A stretch of DNA of 64,000 nt from Tropicibacter sp. R16_0 (GTDB lineage Bacteria > Pseudomonadota > Alphaproteobacteria > Rhodobacterales > Rhodobacteraceae). Positions 43,300 through 47,061 of the stretch are shown piece after piece. The notes under the pieces are model-generated. The model was not told the origin of the DNA, made no database searches, and worked only from the letters and a program-made list of their open reading frames with translations. Both the position numbers and the translations under genes were made by a program. Every line of letters begins with the position of its first letter. Within the stretch, counting starts at the first letter, position 1. The stretch spans positions 1 to 64,000 of the forward strand of contig NZ_JAGHRE010000004.1 in NCBI RefSeq assembly GCF_017743935.1. The letters run 5' to 3'.

Positions 43300-44754
43300 T
43301 CAGTAGGGTGCTTCGACGTCGTTCATCGAGACATAGACCGTTTTCATCTCGCTGAAGTGGTTGATTGCCAGTTTTGAATTCTCACGACCTACGCCCGACA
43401 TCTTGGAACCGCCAAAGGGTGCTTCGACCGGGGCAAGGTTGTAGGTGTTGATATAACAGGTGCCCGCCTCGAACCCGGCCACGATGCGGTGCGCGCGGGT
43501 CAGGTCGTTGGTGAACACGCCAGCGGCCAGACCGAACTCGGTGTCATTGGCGCGGGTCAGGACCTCTTCTTCGGTGTCGAAGTCCAGGACGGACATGACC
43601 GGACCAAAGATCTCTTCGCGTGCGATGGTCATGTCATCGGTGACATCGGCAAAAACAGTGGGCTGCATATAGAAGCCATCGCCGTCAATCCGTTCACCGC
43701 CATAGACCAGCCGCGCGCCCTCGGCCTTGCCCTTTTCGATGTAGCCAAGCGCGATGTTCATCTGGTTTTCGCTGACCATAGGGCCAAAGTTCACATCCTC
43801 GTCCAGCGGATCACCGATCTTGGCGGTGGCAAGGCGTTCGGACAGGCGGTTCAGGAAGACCTCTTTGATGCCCTTTTGCACAAACACACGCGTGCCGTTC
43901 GAGCAGACCTGACCCGAGGAATAGAAGTTGCCCAGGATCGCGCCGGACACGGCGTTTTCAATGTCGGCGTCATCGAACACGATCATCGGGGATTTGCCGC
44001 CCAACTCCATCGTCACGTGTTTCATGCCATCTGCTGCGGCAGCGTAGACTTTACGCCCGGTGGGCACCGAACCGGTGAGCGAGACCTTGGCAACGCGGTC
44101 GTCGGTGATCAGCGAGGCGCCGACGTTGCCGTAGCCTTGAACGACGTTGTAGACGCCCTTGGGTGCGCCCGCCTCGATCAGGATCTCGGCGACTTTGAGC
44201 GCCGACAGGGGCGTGGTCTCGGACGGTTTGAACACCATCGTATTGCCGCAAGTCAGCGCCGGGGCGCCTTTCCAGCAGGCGATCTGCGTGGGATAGTTCC
44301 ATGCACCGATGCCGACGCAGACGCCCAAGGCTTCGCGGATGGTGTAGACAAAATCGCCGCCACCCAACGGGATGTGCTCACCCGTCAGCGATGCAGCCAA
44401 TCCGCCGAAGTATTCCAGCGCATCCGCGCCGCTGGTGGCATCAGCCACCAGGGTTTCCTGCAACGGCTTGCCGGTGTCATGTGTTTCCAGGATCGACAGC
44501 TCGCGGTTGCGCTCGCGCATGATGTCGGCAGCGCGGCGCAGGACGCGGCCGCGTTCGGTTCCCGACATAGCGGCCCATTCGGCCTGTGCGGCTTTGGCAG
44601 CGTTCAATGCCTGATCGATGATGGCGGGGGTGGCTGAATGCAACTTTGCAATCACCTCACCTGTGGCTGGATAGATCACGTCAATTTGTTCGCCGGCAGT
44701 GTCCTCGACGTACTCACCATTGATGAAGTGACTGGCCGTGGGTTGAAATTTCAT
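43300..44754 (-). CDS. betB: Betaine aldehyde dehydrogenase BetB
   Basis: 484-aa NAD(P)-dependent aldehyde dehydrogenase that converts betaine aldehyde to the osmolyte glycine betaine. It has the ALDH catalytic residues in '[10 protein letters not shown]' (Glu) and '[17 protein letters not shown]' (Cys). The BetB-like N-terminus is 'FINGEYVED', and the C-terminus is '[43 protein letters not shown]'. It has BetB-type residues, 'GACWNYP'-like '[15 protein letters not shown]'. betA, betI and betC are not adjacent, unlike the usual bet operon, so betaine aldehyde must come from an enzyme encoded elsewhere. Ends at a strong hairpin. Confidence 0.9.
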
Positions 44755-44880: not shown

Positions 44881-44909
44881 TTGAAAAAGTTCCATGAATG
44901 TTCTATATT
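44881..44909 (+). promoter_or_regulatory. Sigma70-type promoter of the 110-aa repeat protein
   Basis: TTGAAA (44881-44886) and TATATT (44904-44909) are separated by exactly 17 nt, close to the ideal -35/-10 arrangement. Transcription would start near 44916, ahead of a GGAGG ribosome site at 44925. The LexA-type half-sites overlap the spacer and the -10. Confidence 0.75.
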
Positions 44910-44914
44910 TGTTC
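44889..44914 (+). promoter_or_regulatory. Tandem LexA (SOS) boxes, GTTC x 3 at 11-bp period
   Basis: GTTC occurs at 44889, 44900 and 44911, each separated by 7 nt, giving two overlapping GTTC-N7-GTTC sites. This is the established alphaproteobacterial LexA-binding direct repeat. The sites cover the spacer, -10 and start of the adjacent promoter, where LexA would repress. Confidence 0.75.
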
Positions 44915-44938
44915 CATCTGGAGCGGAGGATCATGATC

Positions 44939-45271
44939 ATGGCCCACCTGCCTAAGGCCACATCGCTGGAGAGCCCCAGCAACGACTATCACATTCTGCC
45001 GGTGACGCAGAAACAGCTGCAGTATGCCCTTGCAATTGCAGAAAAATCCTCGGTCGATCTGCCGCCCGAGGCGCGCGCAGACCGCCGCGCCATGTCGGCC
45101 TGGATCGACGCACATCGCCCGCGTCGGGCGCCATCGCGGTTCGACAACTACCCGTCGTCCAAGCAGGTCGCCTTTGCCGAACGGATTGCGCGCAAGAAAC
45201 GGCGCGAGGTTCCGCGCGAGTGCTTTCGCGACCGGATGATGATGTCGCGCTGGATCGACAGCAACCTGTAA
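44939..45271 (+). CDS. Small protein of two tandem topoisomerase/primase-tail-like motifs, SOS-box controlled
   Basis: 110 aa from ATG 44939 (GGAGG 9 nt upstream; ATG 44933 is an alternative with only 3-nt spacing). Two copies of a 36-residue motif make up most of it, residues 23-58 and 73-108, sharing '[TS]-x-KQ-x3-[YF]A-x2-IA-x-K...P-x-E...DR-x2-MS-x-WID'. Similar 'KQ..A..IA....P.......ls.wID' segments occur at the C-termini of DNA topoisomerases and plasmid or phage primases (from memory). The SOS-type promoter suggests a role in DNA damage. Convergent with the sulfatase gene, 2 nt apart. Function not known. Confidence 0.7.
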   Translation: MAHLPKATSLESPSNDYHILPVTQKQLQYALAIAEKSSVDLPPEARADRRAMSAWIDAHRPRRAPSRFDNYPSSKQVAFAERIARKKRREVPRECFRDRMMMSRWIDSNL

Positions 45272-45273
45272 CG

Positions 45274-47061
45274 TCAGTTCTCTTGCAGCGGTGGGTTGAA
45301 ATAGCCCAGGAACGTCGTCAGCCCTGCGATGCTGCCGGTGACTTGCATGTCACCTGCAACAAGCACCTTGGCCGGGTTGCGGCGCTGGACGGCTATGGCA
45401 CGGAACACATCCGTTGTGGTGGTCAACCGTCCCACATTGTCGTCGGCCAGCCCATCCTCCAGATAGGCCACGCCGCGATTGATGCGGATGGTATAGTTCT
45501 GCGCGTCGGTGAATTCGAACCCGTAGGACAGGCTTTTGTCCACGACAGCTGGCGCGTCGACATTTGTGGTCAGGATGCCCAGAAAGCGATCAATCGGAAT
45601 GCCGTTCAACATTCGGTCTGGTGAGGCGGAGATAGAGGCAAGCGGTAGGACAAACCCATCGGCTTCGGCCGCGCTTGTCAGGAAATAGTTACGCACCGAG
45701 GATGCTGTTTCTCGGGCTGCCAATTCCCGCATGGCCGCTGCGCGCAACGCGGCGGCTCGGCCGTCGCCAAGGCGTTGCAATTGGCTGCCCAGGATCAATG
45801 CCCATCCAGCGTCACCATTGGCAAGCGACGCCTCTCCTGCCGCGAACAAGGCGTCGGGGCCACCCGCCAGATCGGCCATCAGTTGCGCCTGCTGATCTGG
45901 CGTAGGCGGGCGCAAGTCGGCCGGATCGCCCGAGAACCAACCCAAGGTGCCGGAGAATACGGCCTTGGCCGCAAAATCGACTCGTCCATAGAGCTCCTTG
46001 AGGTAGGGCGCGTTCGCCAGATGCGGCGGCAATTTGATCTGTTCCGCAATCTCATCCGGGGTGAGGCCCGCGTTGATCATCCGGATCGTCTCGTCATAAA
46101 CGAACTGGATCGCATCCCGGTAATCGGTCAGACGCTTGTGGATTTCATCGCCCCCCAGCACCGGTTGCGAGTGGTGTGGGATCATCGTCTCTGCGCCTAG
46201 CCGGGACATCATATCCAAGCTATCGGCCCATTTTCGCGGATCGCGATAGGGTGTTCCGCGCACCGTGTAGAGGTTTGGAAAGGCATGGTAGTAGTTGTCC
46301 GCGGGAAGGAGCAGAGACCGATCCGGCAGGTAGATGGCAAGTTGATCACCGGTTTCACCGGGTGCATGCATCAGGATCAGGCTTTCCCCGGCCATCGTGA
46401 CCTCGGCATAGTCGTCGATCACATCTGTCGGCGGGATAAAGTCAAAACCGTCTGAATGGTTGCTGAGCAGTCGCGGACCAATTCCGTTGTTTTCGAAATT
46501 CTCGTCGGGCAGGTACGTGCCAAACATCCGCATGGCGCGTTTGAAGGTGATGGGGGAAAGGATGCCCACAACCTCGTTCACCCGCGCCTCGGTCTCGGCT
46601 TGGGCCCAGATGCGGGGGACGTGGTCTTGGCCGTCGAGCAGAACGCCTGCGCCAAACACATGGTCGGCGTGGTTGTGGGTATAGATCACATCTGTCACCG
46701 GCTTTCCGGTCGTTTCGCGCATGCTGTTCAGCCAGGGGAGCAACCCCTCGGCCGCGCGGATCGACTCCAGGGTATCGACCAGGATCAATCCCTCAGGCGC
46801 GTCGATGACAACGACGTTGGCCAGACCATAGCCGATGGCCACGTGAACCCCGGGAATTGGCTCTTCAATGCGCTTTTCAAAGATCTTGTTGTGCGCTTTG
46901 ACGTCTGGCAGCGCGTCGGATCGTGAGACGGCGGCAAAGGTGGTTTCCGTTGCGGCGTCTGACCCGCCGTCGTCGGCGGTAAGCCAGATGTACCCGCCAA
47001 TTCCGGTCACGATTGCGATCGTCGCTGTGGCCGTGGCTGCGCCTGCAAGAAAAGCTTTCAT
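45274..47061 (-). CDS. SdsA1-like alkylsulfatase, metallo-beta-lactamase fold
   Basis: 595-aa exported zinc hydrolase of the alkylsulfatase (BDS1/SdsA1) family, which cleaves sulfate from alkyl chains. A hydrophobic leader or anchor lies at residues 5-27. The metal motif 'THNHADHVFG' gives H129, H131, D133 and H134. 'LMHAPGETGDQLAIYLPDRSLLLPADN' and 'MIPHHSQPVLGG' supply the further ligands. The SCP2-like C-terminal domain starts around residue 490 ('RMLNGIPIDRFLGIL'). The usual length is about 650 aa, so it is slightly short. It is 16 nt downstream of the DUF1254 gene, suggesting co-transcription. Confidence 0.85.
   Translation of the reverse strand: MKAFLAGAATATATIAIVTGIGGYIWLTADDGGSDAATETTFAAVSRSDALPDVKAHNKIFEKRIEEPIPGVHVAIGYGLANVVVIDAPEGLILVDTLESIRAAEGLLPWLNSMRETTGKPVTDVIYTHNHADHVFGAGVLLDGQDHVPRIWAQAETEARVNEVVGILSPITFKRAMRMFGTYLPDENFENNGIGPRLLSNHSDGFDFIPPTDVIDDYAEVTMAGESLILMHAPGETGDQLAIYLPDRSLLLPADNYYHAFPNLYTVRGTPYRDPRKWADSLDMMSRLGAETMIPHHSQPVLGGDEIHKRLTDYRDAIQFVYDETIRMINAGLTPDEIAEQIKLPPHLANAPYLKELYGRVDFAAKAVFSGTLGWFSGDPADLRPPTPDQQAQLMADLAGGPDALFAAGEASLANGDAGWALILGSQLQRLGDGRAAALRAAAMRELAARETASSVRNYFLTSAAEADGFVLPLASISASPDRMLNGIPIDRFLGILTTNVDAPAVVDKSLSYGFEFTDAQNYTIRINRGVAYLEDGLADDNVGRLTTTTDVFRAIAVQRRNPAKVLVAGDMQVTGSIAGLTTFLGYFNPPLQEN

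Follow-up and report, generated by a model that had tools for sequence, protein, structure and literature searches.

Among the small SOS proteins that E. coli produces under the control of LexA is YebG, whose function is still open, and the title of PMC9927553 states that the entry of DNA by conjugation can trigger the SOS response. In the Alphaproteobacteria the LexA box has been published as GTTC-N7-GTTC (PMC3323433), and the same box serves LexA in Caulobacter (PMC9578287, PMC12700426). In the portions of this literature covered here, the alphaproteobacterial SOS regulon is presented mainly as a collection of core repair genes, with parE, tag, comM, dnaE and splB named as additional members (PMC3323433). 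Here, we analyze a stretch of 64,000 nucleotides from Tropicibacter sp. R16_0 (the window), in which a gene for a basic protein of 110 residues lies behind such a box, and we suggest from its promoters that it very probably represents a real SOS gene family of the Rhodobacteraceae under LexA control. This family was not found in the covered portions of PMC6473078, PMC12700426, PMC9578287 and PMC3323433 (for the last, the table of Rhodobacter sphaeroides and Paracoccus denitrificans lay outside that portion), and the literature search returned no damage transcriptome of a roseobacter.

The operator of the 110-aa gene is like the known LexA box in its half-site, in its spacing (as the first-pass annotation had noted, and in agreement with the covered part of PMC3323433) and in its position over a sigma-70 type promoter. 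It differs in having three half-sites that form two overlapping boxes, an arrangement found likewise at lexA promoters of the family (table 1).

Table 1. Features of the promoter, the operator and the 110-aa gene, in positions of the window
Feature	Position	Strand	Basis
-35 hexamer TTGAAA	44881..44886	+	Read directly
LexA-type box 1 GTTCCATGAATGTTC, register A, within spacer	44889..44903	+	GTTC-N7-GTTC read in sequence
LexA-type box 2 GTTCTATATTTGTTC, register B, across -10	44900..44914	+	GTTC-N7-GTTC read in sequence
-10 hexamer TATATT, immediately 3' of middle GTTC	44904..44909	+	Read directly
Shine-Dalgarno-like GGAGG	44925..44929	+	Read directly
Basic-protein gene, 110 aa, tandem three-helix repeat	44939..45271	+	Start ATG 44939
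Repeat unit 1	44996..45121	+	AlphaFold2; helices 26-39, 45-49, 51-61 (P0001 numbering)
Repeat unit 2, more conserved	45137..45268	+	AlphaFold2; helices 76-89, 95-99, 101-110 (P0001 numbering)

The architecture first described for this site, TTGAAA-N17-TATATT overlapped by GTTC-N7-GTTC-N7-GTTC, is exactly what is present (44881-44909 and 44889-44914, respectively). The promoter agrees with the consensus at 10 of 12 letters and its spacer measures 17 bp; a stretch of 2 kb holds 2 promoter-like sites, where shuffled sequence gives 0.5. The half-sites occupy 44889-44892, 44900-44903 and 44911-44914, with a period of 11 bp, and the middle one is common to both boxes.

The simplest explanation of such repeats would be that they are neutral, or due to chance, in a promoter rich in A and T, and simple counting lends that explanation some comfort. 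GTTC-N7-GTTC occurs 7 times in the window against 2.36 expected, and in the whole genome (5.24 Mb) its 187 occurrences are no more than the 204 of a reversed control, so that the bare genome-wide count was rejected as a criterion. The phased triple occurs once in the window, and at least once in 3 of 100 dinucleotide shuffles; in the genome it is found once and the reversed control pattern is also found once, close to the chance level, and its rarity is therefore weak proof by itself. Nor does the composite of a box and a -10 hexamer stand out, since the genome gives 5 matches, at 4 places, and the reversed control gives 5 as well; its weight comes only from the identity of the places and not from their number. 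Four of the five other GTTC-N7-GTTC places in the window lie within longer reading frames, and the fifth (GTTCAATCGAGGTTC, 92-106) stands immediately ahead of an ATG at 111, probably by chance.

What decides against chance is the behavior of the box in homologous promoters. The gene has a homologue in all 4 genomes of the genus (its own included) and in 43 of 198 sampled genomes of the family, at 51 places of which 48 were used; the GTDB collection contributed 525 confirmed relatives, the best 80 of which were kept for the promoter comparison. An exact GTTC-N7-GTTC lies within 170 nt ahead of the match at 45 of the 48 family places and, among these best 80 GTDB relatives, in 78. The two sets overlap, and their merging gave 118 distinct promoters of 200 nt each, 113 of which carry the box; this was the search of Rhodobacteraceae for homologues with the same upstream box that the first-pass annotation had proposed, and its outcome is positive. 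Any other spacing of two GTTC, from N3 to N13, occurs in at most 3 of the 118, and GAAC-N7-GAAC in none of them. The remainder of the same 80 loci (1.73 Mb, both strands) holds 15 boxes, or 0.0015 per 170 nt, and no phased triple. The five exceptions consist of four one-letter variants (L024, L044, L072 and L113) and one promoter with no box (L048), and in one of three congeners (L199) the N7 letters are altered and the half-sites intact. As far as sequence allows, then, the chance explanation can be taken as refuted, and we consider it exceedingly improbable.

The geometry of the promoter is equally regular. In the 123 box-bearing promoters (45 + 78, with the overlap kept), a GTTC directly abuts the -10 hexamer in 107, the spacer is 17 bp in 110 and the -35 hexamer begins with TTG in 119, all figures taken from the best-scoring placement, which leans towards good promoters.

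The identity of the repressor can be approached through the places at which this box recurs. A survey of 26 genomes from the window's family and class found lexA above the curated score in 21 (15 of 16 within the family), and all 21 of these genes have GAAC-N7-GAAC within 250 nt upstream. The window's own genome encodes both LexA and RecA, each behind a promoter with a LexA-type box, that of recA being in GAAC orientation at -110. The composite of box and -10 hexamer is found in this genome at uvrA (named UvrA by NCBIfam), at an imuB-like gene (named from its sequence, its family matches being only weak ones to DNA polymerase IV), at the 110-aa gene and at one place inside a coding frame. The orientation of the box differs among these genes: it reads GTTC at the 110-aa gene and uvrA, and GAAC towards lexA, recA and the imuB-like gene. 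At the last (L162, G000:C32:143542-143564), GTTC-N7-GTTC with a TATAAT stands ahead of the gene and faces a divergent frame, so that a single LexA box may control both genes.

A repressor of plasmid or phage origin with the motif of LexA, itself LexA- or CI-like, might bind the box instead, and the gene would then answer plasmid entry rather than host SOS. Many homologues are indeed carried by plasmids, some of them beside toxin-antitoxin and DNA-processing genes, and partial LexA-like matches below the cut-off occur in some genomes (three were checkable; GAAC-N7-GAAC was present at one of them and GTTC-N7-GTTC at another, and the last had neither). But the same box stands at the host's own lexA, recA, uvrA and imuB-like genes, and nearly every family genome surveyed has a lexA above the curated score; we accordingly judge another repressor to be quite improbable. 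Host LexA appears by far the likeliest ligand of the operator. The conservation of the box, together with its presence at lexA, recA, uvrA and the imuB-like gene, makes LexA control of the 110-aa gene very probable, and we hold this with high confidence on the sequence evidence. The earlier description of a candidate new SOS gene in roseobacters is thus strengthened, both by the homologous promoters and by the reversed box ahead of every lexA gene above the curated score.

In the undamaged cell, a host LexA dimer would lie on GTTC-N7-GTTC over the spacer and the -10 hexamer, and RNA polymerase would be kept off this near-consensus sigma-70 promoter. RecA on single-stranded DNA would bring about the self-cleavage of LexA, the promoter would fire and the basic protein would be made. 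In this scheme we infer LexA binding, RecA-dependent release, and a response of the promoter to damage or to plasmid DNA entering the cell.

The meaning of the third half-site is a separate question. If register A denotes a partner on the upstream side of the half-site at the -10 hexamer and register B a partner on its downstream side, 74 of the 118 promoters have register A only, 21 register B only, 18 the triple and 5 none. The triple is found in the Falsiruegeria-Tropicibacter clade (to which the window belongs), in a Ruegeria-like clade nested within register B, in a Sulfitobacter-Roseobacter group beside register A and in one single genome (L091). In the Ruegeria promoter L072 the middle half-site is off by one letter, and its sister L073 has all three. 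On a protein tree built from few columns, which leaves many forks unresolved, 7 changes between presence and absence of the triple are required, at least 4 of them forced by well-supported branches. A family-wide scan gave matches to the triple in 93 genomes, from which 30 loci were fetched, one per genome: 14 of these lie at lexA, 2 at homologues of the 110-aa gene and 14 at neither. The phased triple is, therefore, an ordinary LexA arrangement, and the earlier idea that a double phased box is unusual and signals strong repression is weakened, both by the lexA loci and by the sharing of the middle half-site between the two boxes.

That idea has a stronger form, in which the triple would be an operator of particular strength, holding two LexA dimers side by side. 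The 11-bp period does bring all the half-sites to roughly one face of the helix, and the triple recurs both in separate clades and at lexA. Against this, with the middle half-site serving both boxes, full double occupancy is sterically unlikely, and a single box is all that 95 of the 118 promoters possess; we therefore regard a two-dimer operator as unlikely. Because boxes 1 and 2 have this half-site in common, two alternative positions for one dimer are to be expected, and not two dimers. The triple would then consist of two overlapping and mutually exclusive LexA registers, one helical turn apart, which would give a modest rise in LexA occupancy, about twofold for equal sites, and would involve no double loading; it fits a form in which the two registers are present together. 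The disappearance of the GTTC triplet from orthologous promoters had been named as something that would speak against LexA control. Such loss does occur, and the intact triplet is confined to the minority of promoters counted above, but the two-half-site LexA box is kept; since this box is what stays, it is the box that defines the operator, and the triplet is an elaboration of it.

Several other phased repeats came to light in the course of this comparison. Ahead of lexA in genome G042 (L173, 1501-1537) there are four phased GAAC half-sites in 11-bp steps. One contig (C11 of genome G023) has 46 matches to the GTTC triple, of which those listed resemble an 11-bp repeat in dispersed copies (GTTCATGCACC-like); they are probably not LexA sites. 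A GTTCCATGAATGTTCTNNTCTGGTTC-like sequence, the first half of which equals box 1 of the window, recurs in G051, G091, G104, G124, G135, G155, G175, G182, G191 and others. At the two loci checked (L183 and L195) it lies neither at lexA or recA nor at the 110-aa gene, and our guess is that it belongs to a conserved coding stretch.

Turning to the gene itself, its longest frame begins at an ATG at 44894, which was rejected since this position falls within the promoter. An ATG at 44933 would give a product of 112 residues (P0001); the other three genomes of the genus have ATA in its place and the 3' end of the GGAGG lies 9 nt ahead of ATG 44939, a spacing that suits the latter, which was therefore adopted as the start and gives the length of 110 residues originally reported. 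The gene is single on its strand, flanked by a divergent frame (43300-44754, apparently an aldehyde dehydrogenase when read from its translation) and a convergent one (45274-47061). The promoter region (44881-44914) would consequently serve a single-gene SOS transcript, our high confidence attaching only to the LexA control in this statement. A conserved operon partner was sought among frames of at least 90 aa at 84 loci and discarded, recurrent neighbors being common only within groups of related loci; one recurrent neighbor module is also present on some plasmids.

The protein is basic (pI 10.3) and is composed of two units that both follow the pattern KQ..(Y/F)A..(I/L)A......P.....DR..(L/M)S.WID and that are identical at 15 of 37 residues. 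AlphaFold2 predicts two similar three-helix units with a mean pLDDT of 85.5 (below 50 for the first 12 residues), and unit 2 modelled alone reaches 96.4; the mean column identity of this unit is 76% in 35 sequences. As the first-pass annotation had it, the protein has no assigned function. It has no match in Pfam, NCBIfam or PADLOC, its one PHROG match (E 0.21) is to a family of unknown function, and a Pfam scan of 26 family members gave only scattered weak matches (TfoX_N in 8 members at a best E of 0.027, TyeA in 2 at a best E of 0.0036, and others in 1-2) and no convincing named family. A sequence search of the PDB yielded no relative, and a fold search yielded nothing significant (best E 0.99 for the whole model and 4.8 for a single repeat).

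In the plasmid collection, the tail of topoisomerase III, for example that of Paracoccus sp. TOH plasmid p2, is 42.5% identical to the protein over residues 25-111 (87 aa, E 1e-14), and both repeat units align with it in order; further matching topoisomerases occur on Variovorax and Xanthomonas plasmids. The homology to this tail is clear from the alignments. The two proteins differ in that the tail sits behind toprim and catalytic domains, whereas the 110-aa protein is free-standing: neither the toprim nor the Topoisom_bac domain is detected in it, and both are present in the Paracoccus protein. Within its own genome no second match is better than E 0.28, which implies that, at this sensitivity, the genome has no topoisomerase with such a tail. 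When the Paracoccus topoisomerase (762 residues) was compared with solved structures, the best-scoring stretches all ended by residue 605, and the tail (659-745) thus has no solved relative in that comparison; a search for a tested function of the tail found none. Together with the charge of the protein, this homology suggests that it probably binds DNA.

At least 3 of 289 genomes in a sample of the class have a match to the 110-aa protein (at most 17 candidates being scored in each), namely the window's own, one more of its family and a third with a single unit. An uncharacterized protein of Aeromonas phage 4L372XY resembles it weakly (29% identity, E 1e-3), and the only viral model matching at E <0.001 is also a protein of this phage (E 4.6e-5), probably the same one; the phage protein has 183 aa and no known function. 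A search of viral contigs gave 36 pattern matches, none of which was confirmed. The resemblance to YebG is one of type: both proteins are small, both have a function that is open, and LexA control is known for YebG and inferred here. Homology to YebG is not significant, the only match being to a topoisomerase fragment with this tail (E 0.08, under the curated cut-off).

PLSDB contains 171 records with a match, topoisomerases included, of which 89 are typed as conjugative; 7 of 60 records sampled at even steps from the 171 are annotated as topoisomerases. The exact box is present at 13 of 15 free-standing plasmid copies checked, the others having GAAC-N7-GTTC (L052) and a decayed box (L207). 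The patchy presence of the gene, the two copies in several genomes of the family and its carriage on plasmids suggest horizontal spread in which the promoter has been kept. If conjugative entry does trigger SOS, the copy of the gene on an incoming plasmid would be switched on in the recipient.

The gene context, read in 18 plasmid stretches, bears on a further possibility, that the protein stems from a plasmid establishment region, as an antitoxin or as a factor against restriction or defence, and that chromosomes have domesticated it. Three stretches have the homologue divergent from a strawberry-notch or methyltransferase/helicase gene, four (two of the former three among them) have toxin-antitoxin genes, RadC and DUF6878 in its vicinity, three of the four also DUF932 and one SSB, and one has it near ParB and a zincin-like metallopeptidase that we take to be ArdC-like; such company favors an establishment factor. 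However, other plasmid copies lie among metabolic genes (three stretches) or transposases (two), no partner gene is common to all the loci compared and PADLOC gave no match, and we find this possibility doubtful. Somewhat better placed, though still tentative, is the function suggested by the topoisomerase homology: that of a DNA-binding accessory protein, probably one that binds single strands, which would act on intermediates of damage or transfer as a free-standing topoisomerase III tail.

Combining these elements, we can picture, with more hesitation still, a family of Rhodobacteraceae SOS effectors in which a free-standing topoisomerase III tail, made of two DNA-binding three-helix units and carried on conjugative plasmids, would be released by host LexA once RecA is activated, either by damage or by single-stranded DNA arriving through transfer, and would have been domesticated by chromosomes. 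Its operator would slide by one helical turn in the course of evolution around the half-site that abuts the -10 hexamer, with the phased triple as the intermediate. The 110-aa gene thus offers a concrete candidate for studies of damage tolerance and of the establishment of plasmids, and its significance would be greater should the protein prove to work in the latter or on intermediates of topoisomerase; the 118 natural promoters, in two registers, constitute a data set on how a LexA site can shift and control be retained. A last observation concerns the copy in Sulfitobacter litoralis (L132, 6001-6339), where a stop codon lies within the matched stretch; perhaps this copy is defective, or else the match extends beyond its end.
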